A stretch of 64,000 bases of DNA from Rikenellaceae bacterium (GTDB taxonomy: Bacteria > Bacteroidota > Bacteroidia > Bacteroidales > Rikenellaceae). Location: assembly GCA_017936385.1 (NCBI GenBank), contig JAGBFQ010000020.1, forward strand, positions 62,001-126,000. The letters are read 5' to 3'. Position numbers and translations under genes: made by a program. The notes beneath the pieces were generated by a model. It did not search any database. It saw only the letters and a list, made by a program, of their open reading frames with translations, and was not told the origin of the DNA. Each line of letters opens with the position of its first letter. Positions within the stretch are counted from its first letter, which is position 1. Shown piece after piece: positions 4,875 through 61,380 of the stretch.

Positions 4875-5621
4875 TTATTGCAGCGAGGCGCACAACTTTT
4901 CGAGGTCTTCGGGGGTATCCACCGAGATGGTCTCGACCGAAGTCACTCCCACTCTGACCGTGTAACCATTCTCCAACCAACGCAGTTGTTCCAAAGACTC
5001 TGCCAATTCGAGCGGACTTTGGGGCAGACGGGTGATTTCGCGCAACACTTCGGCCCGATAGGCATACATTCCGATATGTTTGTAGTATGTGTGCTGGGTT
5101 TGCCAACTTTCGGGTTCTGCTCCGCGCAGGTGGGGAATAACCGAACGACTGAAGTATAATGCACGGTTATCGGCCGTCATTACCACCTTCGGAGAGTTAG
5201 GGTTGAAAATATCCTCGCCTTGGGCAAACGGTTTTACGAGGGTTCCGATTTGGGTCGACGGTTGGTCGAACAACGCGGCAATGGTTTGCAGATGGTCGCC
5301 CGCAATGAGCGGTTCGTCACCCTGTACATTAATTACTACATCGTAGTGCGTATCGGTGATTCGTTCAATGGTTTCCAACGCTTCGGCTATTCGGTCGGTT
5401 CCGCTTCGGTGGCTGTCGGAGGTCATCACAACACGTCCGCCAAAAGCCTCAACGGCATTGTAGATTCGCTGGTCGTCGGTGGCTACCCATGTATCGGCAA
5501 AGTGAGCCGAGGTGCGTTCGTAGACCCATTGAATCATGGGCTTGCCGAGAATCTGTGCGAGGGGTTTGCCGGGGAAACGTGTGGACGCATAGCGCGCGGG
5601 GATAATTGAGAGAAATTTCAT
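4875..5621 (-). CDS. kdsB: 3-deoxy-manno-octulosonate cytidylyltransferase
   Basis: 248 residues from the preferred start MKFLSIIPARYAS; an in-frame ATG two codons earlier (5627) is an alternative. The enzyme couples CTP to Kdo, activating it for lipid A-core assembly in the cytoplasm. The N-terminal nucleotide-binding motif IIPARYASTRFPGKPL is diagnostic; VINVQGDEPLI and HIGMYAYR are further family blocks. Length matches KdsB (about 245-250 aa). It is divergent from the acyl-CoA reductase gene, with the two -7 boxes only about 10 bases apart. Confidence 0.96.
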   Translation of the reverse strand: MKFLSIIPARYASTRFPGKPLAQILGKPMIQWVYERTSAHFADTWVATDDQRIYNAVEAFGGRVVMTSDSHRSGTDRIAEALETIERITDTHYDVVINVQGDEPLIAGDHLQTIAALFDQPSTQIGTLVKPFAQGEDIFNPNSPKVVMTADNRALYFSRSVIPHLRGAEPESWQTQHTYYKHIGMYAYRAEVLREITRLPQSPLELAESLEQLRWLENGYTVRVGVTSVETISVDTPEDLEKLCASLQ

Positions 5622-19245: not shown

Positions 19246-20457
19246 TTACAAATCATTCTCGTCGATACCGAACTCCTTGATACGTCTATACAGCGTTCGT
19301 TCCGACATATAGAGTAGCTTGGCAGCCTCTTTACGCTTGCCATTAGAACGTCTGAGAGCCGAAACTATTGCCTCGCGCATCATTTCGTCCTTGGTTTGCG
19401 GAATCGTCGAGGTGCTCATCTCGGTCACATCCTCCGATTCGGTGTCGGTTACCGTGTGCGGCATTGATGAGTGGTTGGGGAGCAGACCGAAAATTTCGCG
19501 TCCCGAGTGTGGCATCGGGCTAACTGAACTACCGTGCGACAACTCCGTCACCATTCGTTTCAATTCGGCAATATCGTTGCGCATATCAAACAGGATGCGA
19601 TAGAGAATTTCGCGTTCGTCGCCAAATGTAGCTCCTCCACTTGTATGTTCACCTGCCGCGATAGCCGGCGATGTTTGCATTGTAGGCAGGTAACGTTGGA
19701 TTATGTCGGCCGTGATAATACGTTGTTCCTCGATGGCCGAAATCTGTTCTGCCACGTTCTTAAGTTGGCGCACATTGCCAGGCCAAGCATATTGTTCGAT
19801 TACGGCGCGTGCCGACGGGTCGAGTGAGATGGCTGGCATGTGGTATTGGTTGGCGATGTCGGCGGCAAACTTGCGAAATAGCAGGTAAATATCCCCCACC
19901 CTTTCGCGCAATGGCGGAACTACGATGGGTACCGTATTGAGTCGATAGTAGAGGTCATCGCGGAAACGTCCCGAAGCAATAGCCTCCTGAAGGTTGACAT
20001 TTGTTGCAGCCACCACTCGGACGTTGGTTTTCTGTACCTTAGCCGAGCCTACGCGGATAAACTCGCCCGTTTGCAACACGCGCAACAGGCGCACCTGAGT
20101 CGAGTGTGGAAGTTCGGCCACCTCGTCCAAGAAGATAGTTCCTCCGTCGGCCTCCTCAAAATAGCCTTTGCGCGAGTCTACGGCTCCCGTGAAGGCGCCC
20201 TTTTCGTGGCCAAACAACTCCGAGTCGATGGTTCCTTCGGGGATTGCGCCGCAGTTGACGGCTATGTATTTATTGTGTTTGCGCGAACTATTGGCATGGA
20301 TTATTTGCGGAAAAAACTCCTTACCCACGCCGCTTTCGCCCGTAATCAGCACCGAAAGGTCAGTCGGGGCGACGCGCAGTGCTATTTCCAGTGCGCGCTC
20401 CATTCCATGGCTGGTGCCAATGATGCCGAATCGTTGTTTTATTGCAAGTATTTCCAT
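19246..20457 (-). CDS. Sigma54-dependent transcriptional activator without receiver domain
   Basis: 403 residues. The AAA+ domain starts almost at the N terminus (about 10-235): Walker A GESGVGKE, the sigma54-contact loop GAFTGA, Walker B GGTIFLDEVAEL, arginine-finger region FRDDLYYRLN and WPGNVRQL. A low-complexity linker leads to a Fis-type helix-turn-helix at the C terminus (RKEAAKLLYMSERTLYRRIKEF). There is no REC, GAF or PAS input domain, so activity is probably set by expression or a partner protein. Target promoters were not identified. It overlaps nothing and directly abuts the HU-like gene (stop at 20458). Confidence 0.9.
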   Translation of the reverse strand: MEILAIKQRFGIIGTSHGMERALEIALRVAPTDLSVLITGESGVGKEFFPQIIHANSSRKHNKYIAVNCGAIPEGTIDSELFGHEKGAFTGAVDSRKGYFEEADGGTIFLDEVAELPHSTQVRLLRVLQTGEFIRVGSAKVQKTNVRVVAATNVNLQEAIASGRFRDDLYYRLNTVPIVVPPLRERVGDIYLLFRKFAADIANQYHMPAISLDPSARAVIEQYAWPGNVRQLKNVAEQISAIEEQRIITADIIQRYLPTMQTSPAIAAGEHTSGGATFGDEREILYRILFDMRNDIAELKRMVTELSHGSSVSPMPHSGREIFGLLPNHSSMPHTVTDTESEDVTEMSTSTIPQTKDEMMREAIVSALRRSNGKRKEAAKLLYMSERTLYRRIKEFGIDENDL

Positions 20458-56603: not shown

Positions 56604-56654
56604 CATAAACGACGTGGGTGTCCTAAATAATTTGGGACACCCACGTCGTTTATG
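56604..56654. terminator. Bidirectional terminator between trmB and the ABM lipoprotein gene
   Basis: 20-bp perfect stem (56604-56623 with 56635-56654) and an AT-rich loop, between convergent genes. Confidence 0.88.
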
Positions 56655-57107: not shown

Positions 57108-57244
57108 CGAAACATTTTGTAATCATCTGCTTTGTACTCCAACTTTTCGCTCTTCTATCCCGCCTTTGGTCGCAAAAATCCTCTCGAAGGGCACAAAACT
57201 GTTTCGGCAGAATTTTGGCACGTGCTTTGTAATTTTTCGGGCAA

Positions 57245-57640
57245 GGTTTCTTCATTTATTTAAGTTTGGGTTAGTAGTTTTAGAAGGGGCAACCCTTCGG
57301 GGACGGAGGACTATCGTGAGATACTCCTCCGATTCTTTTTTTTGTACCCCTTCTAAAACTTCTTTCAGCTTGTGCGCCTCGGGTGACTTGTCTTTATTCG
57401 GGTGTGGTTTGCTGCGCAAATTGTTGGATTTGGCAGATGTTTTGCTTTGAAAATAAATTTTCAGCAACCATCTGACAAATCCAACAATCTTCGATTGCCA
57501 CACCCTCGCGTCGGTCACCTCTCGGCTGCGGCCGCCGTTAGTAGTTTATTATTAGGTGCTTTGCAATTTGTTTTAGAGGGGGCAACCCTTCGGGGACGGG
57601 CGGTAGCCACAGAAAACTCCCGCCTAATTCTTCGTTTTTG
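57245..57640 (+). repeat. Structured intergenic repeat, copy 1 (two hairpin modules plus a long palindrome)
   Basis: Module 1 (57275-57342): hairpin I GAAGGG-GCAA-CCCTTC, then hairpin II GGAGGA-TATC-GTGA-GATA-TCCTCC (one unpaired base on each side), then a T tract ending in TTTG. A 13-base inverted repeat (GTTTTAGAAGGGG with CCCCTTCTAAAAC) brackets it. Next is a palindrome of about 105 bases (57400-57505) with a 19-bp arm pair 57421-57439/57469-57487. A degenerate second module (57570-57640) ends in TTTTTG. The 35 bases at 57245-57279 recur at 61281-61315. A minus-strand open frame (57252-57518) crosses it but tracks the repeat, so I do not call a gene. Confidence 0.8.
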
Positions 57641-57667
57641 ATATCTAAAATATTTTGCTTAACTTTG
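57638..57667 (+). promoter_or_regulatory. Promoter of the DUF2807 gene, -33 inside the repeat
   Basis: TTG at 57638-57640 is the last part of the repeat T tract; 19 bases later comes TAACTTTG (57660-57667), 30 bases before the ATG at 57698. Confidence 0.7.
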
Positions 57668-57697
57668 TACTATTGAACAAAACCTTATCAGTTGACT

Positions 57698-58345
57698 ATG
57701 AGAACTATTTTTACCCTATTAGTTGGCGTTATTGCTATGGTGTGTACGGGATGTGAAGTTGATGACACCTTGCTTAAGAATCACAAAACATATACTCTTT
57801 ATGAGGAGATATCAGCCCTTGTGATATCAGATGGCGTGGATGTTATCGTGGACGATGCTCTGCCTCATAACCAAGTATATGTCTTGACAAATGCTAAAAA
57901 TTTCAATAGGTTGAACATTGAGGTTATTGACGGCACACTACATATTGGAGGAGTATTAATATCTATATTTGGCTATAATCGTTGTTTGGTATATGTACCT
58001 TCAGTTGCGTATGAGCGTGTTGAGATGGGAGGCGGTAGCGATTTCTCGTGGGACAGCTGCAATAGTGATGTATTATCTGTCACAGTATCAGGTGGTAGCG
58101 ACTGTTATATTAAGGGTGTCGCACAGAAACTAAGCATTGATAGCTCCGGAGGTGCAGATGCCGAGTGCGGCGAGCTGGAGGCTGAGTATGTCACCATCAA
58201 CGCATCTGGAGGCTCTGATGTTGATGCTGTAGCTAACAGTACACTCTCATTAACAGCATCGGGTGGTGCGGATGTACACATCAAAGGCAATCCCCAAATT
58301 GTACATTGGGATGTATCAGGCGGCGCGGATGTGAAGTTTAATTAG
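57698..58345 (+). CDS. DUF2807 (GIN domain) lipoprotein
   Basis: 215 residues from ATG 57698 (TTG 57692 also in frame). Lipobox VCTGC gives lipidated Cys19. The rest is a DUF2807-type beta-helix: after ALVISDGVDVIVDD, short turns recur as GGGSD, SGGSD, SSGGAD, SGGSD, SGGAD and SGGAD about every 20 residues, giving a regular right-handed solenoid. DUF2807 proteins are presumed cell-surface or adhesin-like in Bacteroidetes; function is not established. It lies between two copies of the intergenic repeat. Confidence 0.82.
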   Translation: MRTIFTLLVGVIAMVCTGCEVDDTLLKNHKTYTLYEEISALVISDGVDVIVDDALPHNQVYVLTNAKNFNRLNIEVIDGTLHIGGVLISIFGYNRCLVYVPSVAYERVEMGGGSDFSWDSCNSDVLSVTVSGGSDCYIKGVAQKLSIDSSGGADAECGELEAEYVTINASGGSDVDAVANSTLSLTASGGADVHIKGNPQIVHWDVSGGADVKFN

Positions 58346-58370
58346 GTTATACATTAAAGTTATACAACCC

Positions 58371-58740
58371 TTGGGTTAGTAGTTTTAGAAGGGGCAACCC
58401 TTCGGGGACGGAGGACTATCGTGAGATATTCCTCCGATTCTTTTTTTGTACCCCTTCTAAAACTTCTTTCAGCTTGTGCGCCTCGGATGACTTGTCTTTG
58501 TTCGGGTGTGGTTTGCTGTGCAAATAGTTGTCTTTGTCAGATGTCTTGCTTTGAAAATTAATTTTCAGCAACCATCTGACAAATCCAACAATCTTCGATT
58601 GCCACACCCTCGCGTCGGTCCCCTCTCGGCTTCTGCCGCCGTTAGTAGTTTATTATAGGTGATTCGCTATTTGTTTTAGAAGGGGCAACACTTCGGGGAC
58701 GGAGGACTATCGTGAGATACTCCTCCGATTATTTTTTTTG
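58371..58740 (+). repeat. Structured intergenic repeat, copy 2
   Basis: Same plan as copy 1: module 1 (58381-58449) with hairpins I and II and a TTTTTTTG tract, bracketing inverted repeat, long palindrome (58504-58609; here 11 bp CATCTGACAAA pairs perfectly where copy 1 has a mismatch), and a second intact hairpin II module (58673-58740) ending in TTTTTTTTG. In the second module hairpin I is disrupted (CACTTC for CCCTTC). A minus-strand open frame (58416-58607) is homologous to the one in copy 1 but follows the DNA repeat. Confidence 0.8.
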
Positions 58741-58767
58741 TGGTTAGGGAAAGATTACGTATATTTG
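58737..58767 (+). promoter_or_regulatory. Promoter of the GH92 gene, -33 inside the repeat
   Basis: TTTG at 58737-58740 ends the hairpin T tract of repeat copy 2; 19 bases later TATATTTG (58760-58767), 28 bases before the ATG at 58796. Confidence 0.7.
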
Positions 58768-58795
58768 TAAAAATACCACAAAACTCGCAACTATT

Positions 58796-61039
58796 ATGAA
58801 AATTTCACATTATGTGGCAGTGGTGGGAGTGTTATGCTTGGCCACAGCCTGCAATCGAGGCAACCTCGCGCAATATGTCAATCCGATGATTGGCACCGAT
58901 TTTCACGCGCACTGCTATCCAGGCTCCACCCTACCCTTTGCTATGGTACAACTCAGCCCCGACAATGGTCCCGGAGGTTGGGATTGGTGTGGCGGCTACC
59001 ACGCCTCCGATACCACAATCGTAGGTTTCTCGCACACCCACATCAGTGGTACGGGAGTTCGCGACCTGGGCGATATTATGCTGATGCCTGCCGTGGGTGT
59101 CGTGCAGTGGAGTGAGGGCCCCAAGGAGAGCCCCGAGCAGGGTTATCGTTCGCCATTTGACAAGCAGAGCGAGAAGGCTTCGCCTGCATACTATTCGGTG
59201 CGCTTGACCGAGCCGCAAGTTACCGCCGAGTTGACAAGCACGCTACGCTGTGGTGTGCATCGCTATCGTTTCGACAACCCCAAGGAGCAATACATAATGC
59301 TGGACCTTGACCACGGAATCGGCAATCGCACAACCGGAGCAATGTTGCGTCGCGTAGATGAGCGCACTGTCGAGGGTGTTCGCCGTGTTACGGGTTGGGC
59401 CAAACAGCGTGAGGTGTGGTTCCGTGCCGAGTTTTCGGAACCCTTTGGCGAAATTGCAACAATGGTTGATGGTACCGAAGGAGTGCTTGATGAGTGTGCC
59501 AAGGGTATAAAAGTTGCCGCAGCAATACGTTTTGCGCAACCCGCACGCGAGATTGAAGTGCGTGTGGCATTGTCAATGACCTCGACCGAGGGTGCTGAGC
59601 GCAACTTCGACGCTGAGGTTGCGGGTGTAAGTTTTGAAGAGGTTCATCGCCGTGGTGTGGCTGCCTGGAACGAGCAGTTGCAGAAAGTGCAAATCGCGCC
59701 ACAGACCCCCGAACGCGATAAACGCATATTCTACACCTCGATGTATCACGCAATGGTAACTCCCAACCTATTCAGCGATGTGGACGGAGCGTACGTTAAT
59801 ATGAAACGCGAGCAAGCCAATGCCGGTAACGACGAGCACTACACGCTATTCTCGCTGTGGGATACTTATCGTGCAACCCACCCGTTGTACACCATCATTG
59901 CACCCAAACACAATCAGGCTTTTGTGCGTTCGATGATTGACAAGTGGCGCAGTTCGGGTCTGCTTCCCATTTGGGAGTCACACAGCAACGAGAACTTCTG
60001 TATGATTGGCTACCACTCGGTGGCGGTCATTGCAGACTCCTATATGAAGGGGCAGCGAGATTTCGATGCACAGGCCGCCCTGCAAGGTATGATTGAGACC
60101 TCGCAATATGGTCCTTATGGCGGACTTGACCAACTTATGAGTTGCGGCTACCTACCTTACGACAAGGTTTCGCAATCGGTATCCAAAGGTGTGGAGTACG
60201 CCTTTGACGATTGGTGTATAGCACAGATGGCTGCCGCGTTGGGCGACACCGCCACAGCAGCACTTTACACCAATCGCGCAGGCTTATATCGCCACTATTT
60301 CGACCCTGAGGACGGATTCCTCAAAGGTCGTGACAGTGAGGGTAACCTGCGCCCCGAATTTGACCCCGCCATTGTACCACACTACGGCGGTGGTGACTTT
60401 ATCGAGGGCAATGGCTGGCACTATGCCTTCTATGTTCCGCACGATGTCCCTGCTCATATCGCTATGATTGGCGGCGACGAGGCCTATATCGCCAAACTCG
60501 ACGCGATGTTCGAGGCTCCCGATTTGGATGACCACTCGGGCGCAGTGATGGATGTCACCGGCTCCATCGGTCAATATACCCACGGTAACGAACCCTCGCA
60601 CCAAGTACCCTATCTGTACGCCTATGCAGGCTGCCCGTGGAAGACCCAACTTCGCGTGCATCAGATTATGGATGAGATGTATAACGACACACCTGATGGT
60701 CTGTGTGGTAATGAGGATTGCGGACAACTTTCGGCCTGGTATATATTTAGCGCACTGGGCTTCTATCCCGTGACACCCGCATCGAATATCTATGTGCTTG
60801 GAACTCCACGTTTCGATAGTGCCGAGATTGCTGTGGGCGACAACATCACCTTTAAGATTGTGGCCGAAGGTCTGTCCGAGGAGAACTTCTATGTTGCCGA
60901 AGTATTGTGGAATGGAGAGCCATACGCCCGCTCCTATATTACACACGATATGGTGATGGGCGGCGGTCAGTTGACATTCCGTATGAGCAACGAGCCGAAC
61001 CGCAACTTCGCCAGCGAACCAGACAATCGCCCCCACTAA
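58796..61039 (+). CDS. GH92 family alpha-mannosidase lipoprotein
   Basis: 747 residues. Lipobox ATAC gives Cys19, so it is probably envelope anchored. Family GH92 (exo-acting, Ca2+-dependent, inverting alpha-1,2/1,3/1,4/1,6-mannosidases): YVNPMIGTDFHAHCYPGSTLPFAMVQLSPD and GFSHTHISGTGVRDLGDIMLMP at the N-terminal beta-sandwich, ESHSNENFCMIGYHSV, GNEPSHQVPYLYAYAG and EDCGQLSAWYIFSALGFYP in the catalytic (alpha/alpha)6 domain, and ITHDMVMGGGQLTFRMS at the end. It likely trims host N-glycan or yeast mannan side chains. No SusC/D pair is nearby, so it is not in a typical PUL. Preceded by a repeat that supplies part of the promoter. Confidence 0.95.
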   Translation: MKISHYVAVVGVLCLATACNRGNLAQYVNPMIGTDFHAHCYPGSTLPFAMVQLSPDNGPGGWDWCGGYHASDTTIVGFSHTHISGTGVRDLGDIMLMPAVGVVQWSEGPKESPEQGYRSPFDKQSEKASPAYYSVRLTEPQVTAELTSTLRCGVHRYRFDNPKEQYIMLDLDHGIGNRTTGAMLRRVDERTVEGVRRVTGWAKQREVWFRAEFSEPFGEIATMVDGTEGVLDECAKGIKVAAAIRFAQPAREIEVRVALSMTSTEGAERNFDAEVAGVSFEEVHRRGVAAWNEQLQKVQIAPQTPERDKRIFYTSMYHAMVTPNLFSDVDGAYVNMKREQANAGNDEHYTLFSLWDTYRATHPLYTIIAPKHNQAFVRSMIDKWRSSGLLPIWESHSNENFCMIGYHSVAVIADSYMKGQRDFDAQAALQGMIETSQYGPYGGLDQLMSCGYLPYDKVSQSVSKGVEYAFDDWCIAQMAAALGDTATAALYTNRAGLYRHYFDPEDGFLKGRDSEGNLRPEFDPAIVPHYGGGDFIEGNGWHYAFYVPHDVPAHIAMIGGDEAYIAKLDAMFEAPDLDDHSGAVMDVTGSIGQYTHGNEPSHQVPYLYAYAGCPWKTQLRVHQIMDEMYNDTPDGLCGNEDCGQLSAWYIFSALGFYPVTPASNIYVLGTPRFDSAEIAVGDNITFKIVAEGLSEENFYVAEVLWNGEPYARSYITHDMVMGGGQLTFRMSNEPNRNFASEPDNRPH

Positions 61040-61280
61040 AACCACAAAAAAGTGTGGTGAGTTTTGATGTTTTTAAATTATCTACAAAACCCACCAGACA
61101 AAACACTATACATAATAAAATATTTTAATATTAATTGTAAGCAAAATAGGGCTAAAATGGAAAAAATCTAATAAAAAGCCACCAAGCAACACTTAAACGT
61201 AAAAAAAATGCCCAAAAAAGTTCCAATTTGTTTGCAATTAAAAAATATATTACTACATTTGTATTGTGAAACACAACAAA

Positions 61281-61380
61281 GGTTTCTTCATTTATTTAAG
61301 TTTGGGTTAGTAGTTAAGGGACACTTAAATCCCTGCTTCAGCGGGACCATCGAGAGATGCTCCCGCTTGATGTTTTTTTG
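61281..61380 (+). repeat. Structured intergenic repeat, short copy 3
   Basis: The first 35 bases equal 57245-57279. It then holds an AGGGA/TCCCT hairpin and hairpin II GCGGGA-CATC-GAGA-GATG-TCCCGC followed by TTTTTTTG. Relative to copies 1 and 2, both arms of hairpin II have changed in a pairing-preserving way and the loop stays GNRA (GAGA for GTGA). The long palindrome is absent. The rest of 61040-61487 is AT-rich without other features, apart from a weak 6-bp hairpin (61041-61058) after the GH92 stop. Confidence 0.75.

Follow-up and report, generated by a model that had tools for sequence, protein, structure and literature searches.

A conserved small RNA family of the Rikenellaceae with FopS-like anatomy and a predicted sigma-54 promoter

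The repeats at 57-61 kb and their anatomy

The window analysed here, a 64,000-nucleotide stretch of a Rikenellaceae bacterium genome (assembly GCA_017936385.1, contig JAGBFQ010000020.1, positions 62,001 to 126,000), carries a set of intergenic repeats in which two copies of a predicted small RNA (sRNA) gene and three partial duplicates can be recognised. Copy 1 (57243-57343, + strand; predicted transcript about 57241-57343) matches R1, the covariance model of the family, with 98.2 bits and an E value of 1.6e-13. It starts with a near-invariant single-stranded 5' block, AAGGTTTCTTCATTTATTTAAGTTTGGGTTAGTAGTTTT (57243-57281, + strand, delimited with alignment A1), which is a putative pairing region. 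The block is followed on the same strand by hairpin I (57283-57298, GAAGGG-GCAA-CCCTTC), recognised by folding and with five covarying model pairs, by hairpin II (57304-57331), made of 7 bp, a C.C mismatch, 4 bp and a GTGA loop, and by a T tract (57336-57343) that is predicted to form an intrinsic terminator together with hairpin II. According to the alignment, the T tract is retained in nearly all homologues. Copy 2 (61279-61379, + strand; 91.6 bits with R1) has the same parts, namely the block at 61279-61315, hairpin I at 61317-61334, hairpin II at 61340-61367 and the T tract at 61373-61379. Among the window copies, the complete 37-nt 5' block is found only in these two and is identical in both; the repeat search gave a 37-nt stretch 5' of the hairpins, AAGGTTTCTTCATTTATTTAAGTTTGGGTTAGTAGTT, as their longest identity.

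The initial annotation had placed hairpin II at 57.3, 58.4, 58.7 and 61.3 kb, and sequence, repeats and folds agree with all four places; the T tract that it described is also seen after each copy listed. Its stems and GNRA loops were read correctly, but the 1x1 mismatch between the stems was omitted. The letters are CGGAGGA C TATC GTGA GATA C TCCTCCG in the copies at 57.3, 58.4 and 58.7 kb (C.T in the 58.4-kb copy) and AGCGGGA C CATC GAGA GATG C TCCCGCT in copy 2. Regarding hairpin I, the GCAA loop holds for copy 1 but not for copy 2, where the loop is CACTTAAA, and the family as a whole does not conserve this loop. The copies listed are real, but a degenerate one at 57553-57640 had been missed. 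Moreover, that annotation did not include the single-stranded 5' block, where conservation is highest, nor the sigma-54 promoter, the spread across the family or the partial nature of three copies.

The degenerate duplicate (57553-57640, + strand) retains hairpin I but neither the inner stem of hairpin II, which it has lost, nor the 5' block. The second one (58371-58447, + strand, 50 bits) lies downstream of a DUF2807 gene and consists of the 3' part of the block, the hairpins (hairpin II at about 58409-58436) and the T tract, without a promoter, while the third (58662-58738, + strand, 33 bits) has only the hairpins (hairpin II at about 58700-58727) and the T tract. These copies, at 57.55, 58.37 and 58.66 kb, are pieces of a local duplication around the DUF2807 gene; most or all of the 5' block is gone from them, and they are probably terminators at most.

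In the same area, a 216-bp spacer is repeated at 57337-57552 and 58441-58656 with 94% identity; within it lie a long, though imperfect, inverted repeat (57415-57442/57466-57493) and, at 57431, a sigma-54-like site, and no further copies of it were found in the genome of origin. The stretch 57599-58373, which spans the DUF2807 gene and a portion of the sRNA hairpins (hairpin II), is 93% identical over 775 bp to positions 1563-2337 of L229, a genome of another Bacteroidales family, which suggests horizontal transfer or contamination of a metagenome-assembled genome.

On folding, the minimum free energy z-score was -2.8 for the 61.3-kb copy and about -4.5 for the stretches at 57.3 and 58.4 kb, the latter value being aided by an outer inverted repeat (57277-57289/57348-57360). 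This repeat, GTTTTAGAAGGGG/CCCCTTCTAAAAC, surrounds the hairpins of copy 1 and would compete with hairpin I; it was not seen just downstream of the close relative L008.

Conservation of the structure and distribution in the Rikenellaceae

In alignment A1, built from 44 diverse copies, positions 5-25 and 27-35 are invariant in all of them. Covariation was analysed with 106 copies aligned to R1, using as controls shuffled alignments or alignments with one arm slid by 1-3 columns. Paired cells reached 95.3%, versus 69.5% in the shuffled and 41-57% in the slid controls, double-change cells were 467 versus 115 shuffled, and the covariation score was 0.764 versus 0.272 shuffled, values biased toward the structure inasmuch as the alignment was fitted to R1. 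All 11 pairs of hairpin II are changed on both sides and all 5 model pairs of hairpin I show double changes, that is, the 16 model pairs of both hairpins; 98.7% and 87.5% of the cells are paired, respectively. An independent RNAalifold prediction on a MAFFT alignment gave double changes at 12 of 13 predicted pairs. Across the family, hairpin II keeps the 1x1 mismatch between stems (C.C) and a GNGA loop.

The compensatory changes found at every pair in about 100 homologues support selection on RNA structure, as initially proposed, together with the reading as a small RNA or terminator and not as a decaying coding sequence. Stem changes without compensation in further copies of the genome had been named as the observation that would speak against it, and the figure for paired hairpin II cells answers that point. 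A coding reading of the repeats was also considered, and it is ruled out by stops inside the block and by the compensatory stem changes.

An additional hairpin abuts the 5' side of the block in about 80 of the 99 copies with a mid-length leader (score of at least 9 in 78 of 99, versus 1.8 when shuffled). Its stems vary, for example CTGCGG/CCGCAG or CTACGTTG/CAACGTAG, and the window copies do not have it. Taken together, the alignments and folds show a unit of about 100 nt with an invariant 5' region of about 35 nt predicted to be unpaired, two covarying hairpins and a predicted intrinsic terminator, mostly behind a putative sigma-54 promoter.

R1 found matches in 217 of 250 genomes of the family, in 102 of the 110 of high quality and in 20 of 22 genera. 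By BLAST, 62 of 120 related genomes matched, nearly all of them Rikenellaceae and many over the block alone at 95-100% identity. Furthermore, when the GTDB genome collection was scanned for exact matches to 32 nt of the block, at least 117 stretches were obtained; the matches listed were titled Alistipes, Tidjanibacter, Candidatus Avirikenella or Rikenellaceae, with one labelled just Bacteroidales.

This distribution bears on whether the repeats could be a repetitive or mobile element spread in the genome, such as repetitive extragenic palindromes or bacterial interspersed mosaic elements (REP/BIME), a miniature inverted-repeat transposable element (MITE) or a transposon end. Such an origin would fit the tandem partial duplicates seen locally and the copy clusters of L100, L083 and L183. 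However, BLAST against the genome of origin found copies only in this 4-kb neighbourhood, there are 1-3 R1 matches per genome among the genomes listed, the promoter is conserved and the plasmid records gave no sRNA match. The many dispersed promoterless copies per genome typical of REP/BIME or MITE were not seen, and this origin is scarcely credible.

The genes next to the sRNA are not conserved, since they vary between genera and only the proximity of rpoN recurs; a conserved neighbour as a functional clue was dropped for this reason. In genus g8 (G017, G036, G048, G055, G062, G067, G072 and G123) the sRNA was not detected by R1. Its genomes have rpoN, two of them with a sigma-54 hsp20 promoter, and the genus appears to lack the sRNA through natural loss or strong divergence.

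Some unusual copies should also be mentioned. Tandem copies in L142 (6187-6294), L183 (6868-6981) and L080 (1541-1651) present a block broken in two by an insert, which suggests two functional sub-blocks. In L100 (2490-6409), four sRNA-like copies are packed into 4 kb; one of them is complete, whereas the 5' end is shortened or altered in the other three. The search of phage records gave no sRNA match, but the uncultivated 48-kb viral contig L377 (IMGVR_UViG_3300032167_000198) contains an exact 31-nt block core (5585-5615, - strand) followed by stems like those of hairpins I and II, among small viral-type genes and without a T tract or sigma-54 element. It may be a mimic of the host sRNA carried by a phage; FopS, a Bacteroides thetaiotaomicron sRNA compared below, has been reported in a phage too (PMC11697453).

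Promoters and sigma-54 context

The letters upstream of the 57.24-kb copy, TTTTGGCACGTGCTTTGTA, correspond to a sigma-54 -24/-12 element, and the predicted promoter TGGCACGTGCTTTGTA (57216-57231, + strand) ends 11 nt upstream of the block. With a motif score of at least 12 of 15.5, such an element precedes 131 of 148 distinct copies, versus 5.4 in shuffled upstream sequence; with at least 13 it precedes 115 of the 148, versus 0.5, these copies being related and hence not independent events. The leader between the -12 element and the block ranges from 11 to 121 nt across copies and, therefore, the retention of the element is more than plain sequence similarity. Copy 2 has instead a putative housekeeping-type promoter, TTTG-N19-TACATTTG (61231-61261, + strand), whose N19 spacing and TAnnTTTG are shared by the orthologues L046 and L048. 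This TTTG-N19-TAnnTTTG type, which is that of Bacteroidota housekeeping promoters, is clear only at this copy and its two orthologues, and the sigma-54 motif was not found upstream of any of the three. The window thus has one copy of each predicted promoter kind, sigma-54 and housekeeping.

These promoters also help to judge whether the hairpins could act as terminators only, ending the transcripts of neighbouring genes, with the remainder as a conserved leader or 3' untranslated region. The layout is that of an intrinsic terminator, and no promoter precedes the copies at 58.37 and 58.66 kb, the first of which lies downstream of a gene. Nevertheless, a terminator would need neither an invariant unpaired block of 35 nt nor a dedicated sigma-54 promoter in a fixed position, and the flanking genes vary between genera, so this explanation is very improbable for the family.

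The -24/-12 element is of the GG-N10-GC type and stands at a conserved place, and the genome encodes RpoN and a bacterial enhancer-binding protein (bEBP). The rpoN gene was found in 113 of 120 genomes. In 19 genomes from six genera it lies on the same contig within 20 kb of the sRNA gene, where a rough estimate gives about one chance case for 60 genomes of this size, with distances of 0.9 kb in G049, 1.0 kb in G056 and 3 kb in G018. The bEBP gene (19246-20457, - strand) adjoins lptE in a run that also encodes an HU-like and a SecG-like protein. Its product has a sigma-54 interaction domain (AAA+) from residue 12, an AAA lid and HTH_8, with no N-terminal sensor domain. It is the single convincing sigma-54 activator found in this genome, and relatives in the family have one to seven.

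In the part of the genome read, the best other intergenic sigma-54 site lies 49 nt before hsp20 (L273 17474-17535; G000:C2:57474). Strong sites precede hsp20 also in at least six relatives (G004, G012, G017, G028, G031 and G036), and a site is found upstream of dnaK. The hsp20 motif agrees with a published chaperone regulon, as sigma-54 control of GroEL, IbpA, DnaK and GrpE is reported to be enriched in Bacteroidota (PMC12316311).

Elsewhere in the window, an almost perfect inverted repeat (56604-56654; 25 bp, spacer of 1 nt), between a trmB-like gene and a convergent ABM-domain gene, is probably a bidirectional terminator.

Proposed function and comparison with known systems

We propose, with a probability of roughly 60%, that these loci encode a sigma-54-controlled, Hfq-free, FopS-like family of trans-acting sRNAs conserved across the Rikenellaceae. 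Under stress, the AAA+ activator and RpoN would turn on both the sRNA and chaperone genes, hsp20 among them. The unpaired 5' region of the sRNA would then pair with mRNAs around the start codon and block, without Hfq, the translation of exported or outer-membrane proteins, while hairpin I and hairpin II with the terminator would hold this region open and stabilise and terminate the RNA. The sRNA would probably be the noncoding arm of a chaperone/envelope-stress regulon. In the genus of the window, a second copy may have come under a housekeeping promoter, so that one copy would be basal and the other inducible. Read as its complement, the block gives AAATAAATGAAGAAACC, which resembles the start of a signal-peptide gene, TTTCTTCAT being antisense to ATGAAGAAA, and the idea of start-codon pairing preceded the comparison with FopS.

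Several results weigh against this proposal. Target tests covered about 1.44 Mb of the genome of origin and were negative in four forms: long antisense matches stayed at chance, with only chance-level sites besides the sRNA loci themselves (among these sites, 13 nt matching the leader of a tryptophanase-like gene); duplex energies at start regions were not enriched (378 versus 336+-56), nor were 8-mer seeds (106 versus 124+-41 for shuffled targets); and pairing in the subset of signal-peptide genes was at chance. Because of these results, start-codon pairing is inferred from the anatomy and from FopS. The part of the genome read contains no more than one or two SusC-like genes, and PF00076, the RNA recognition motif (RRM) domain of RbpB, is absent from this genome and from most Rikenellaceae searched. 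Neither did the window stretch 57200-57360 match the Rfam FopS family RF04319 up to E 10. The link to heat shock rests on few genes, and the genome-wide scan for the sigma-54 motif did not exceed its control (100 versus 94 sites); it was dropped as a regulon finder, and the motif is therefore convincing by conservation alone.

The negative target tests could also indicate that the RNA binds a protein, sequestering it or serving as a scaffold like 6S or CsrB, the block being then a protein-binding site and not an mRNA seed. Its invariance over about 35 nt and the presence of one or few RNA copies per genome are consistent with that. Nonetheless, remote members alter the block yet keep the antisense of AUG-AAA (TTTTTCAT), an insert breaks the block in two in L080, L142 and L183, and the FopS relatives work by pairing (PMC11697453), so that protein binding seems improbable compared with the trans-acting sRNA proposed.

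Those remote members connect the family with FopS. Outside the Rikenellaceae, R1 gave several low-scoring matches (E 9e-5 to 9e-4, with about 0.2 false genomes expected in 247), and the model R2, which includes them, finds more members in about a dozen other Bacteroidales families. They nearly always carry TTTTCAT, TTTCTCAT or TTTCTTCAT. Most of them have in common TTTTTCAT (or TTTCTCAT), a stretch resembling TTTAAG/GTTTAGGTTAGTAG, and a terminator hairpin in which the internal mismatch and the GNGA loop often recur. A clear sigma-54 promoter is present in two of them (L232 and L356), and the TAnnTTTG type in many others. Several match RF04319 at the same position, with 29-38 bits and below the gathering cut-off of 56, and others match BTnc231. 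These intermediates carry signatures of both FopS and the Rikenellaceae sRNA.

The same anatomy could have arisen without descent from FopS, through similar constraints on start-codon antisense RNAs. The bridging scores are indeed below threshold and the window copy is below any FopS match, but a model built only from Rikenellaceae finds the remote members at the E values given, and sequences of the same kinds fit both models. We consider independent origin unlikely, although with a real share of the probability, and the Rikenellaceae sRNA is probably a remote relative of FopS with FopS-like anatomy. It is not filed as FopS because its copies fail to match RF04319: five Rikenellaceae loci gave no match up to E 5, and an Rfam search of the window and the loci left the sRNA unmatched.

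In B. thetaiotaomicron, FopS exists in 14 copies with sigma-ABfr promoters, responds to bile and combines a single-stranded 5' end with a terminator; it pairs at the start codon through that 5' end and represses SusC translation, and RbpB, an RRM protein, counteracts this effect (Ruttiger et al. 2025, PMC11697453). With FopS (RF04319), GibS and BTnc231 (RF04180), the Rikenellaceae sRNA shares an unpaired U-rich 5' end, a UUCAU core, a GGUUA stretch, an intrinsic terminator hairpin, paralogous copies and the lack of Hfq, which was found in 0 of 41 genomes, the one of origin included. On the other hand, it is predicted to be mostly under sigma-54 instead of sigma-ABfr promoters (131 of 148 copies), and it has the extra hairpin I, often a 5' hairpin, and a longer, nearly invariant block. 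Its copies are 1-3 versus 12-15, and the RRM protein and any Rfam match are missing.

As judged from sequence, this is a real sRNA family found in no library or paper searched, and the putative sigma-54 control is the main novelty; the literature search found no paper on an Alistipes or Rikenellaceae sRNA, nor one mentioning this family. Alistipes and its relatives are common gut bacteria, and they would have an sRNA that is nearly universal among them, with clear boundaries and a defined promoter class. It would extend to other Bacteroidales families an sRNA group described in Bacteroidaceae and give the sigma-54 regulon of Bacteroidota, which is poorly known, a noncoding member.

The Qrr sRNAs of Vibrio, which act in quorum sensing, are also sigma-54-dependent paralogues with an invariant pairing region of about 32 nt and a terminator. 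They require Hfq, which is absent here, and no sequence kinship is claimed. In enterobacteria, the stress sigma factor sigma-E makes the sRNAs RybB and MicA, which halt the synthesis of new envelope proteins; the likeness concerns the proposed logic only, since they differ in sigma factor and Hfq dependence and are unrelated in sequence. Tentatively, and at less than even odds, FopS, GibS, BTnc231 and the Rikenellaceae sRNA could form an ancient superfamily of Bacteroidales start-codon-antisense sRNAs, whose Rikenellaceae branch would be under RpoN and, in this genome, the lptE-adjacent activator, with one sigma-54 stress regulon making chaperones and stopping the translation of exported proteins. 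If true, this would parallel the sigma-E/RybB logic of enterobacteria, with unrelated components and no Hfq.

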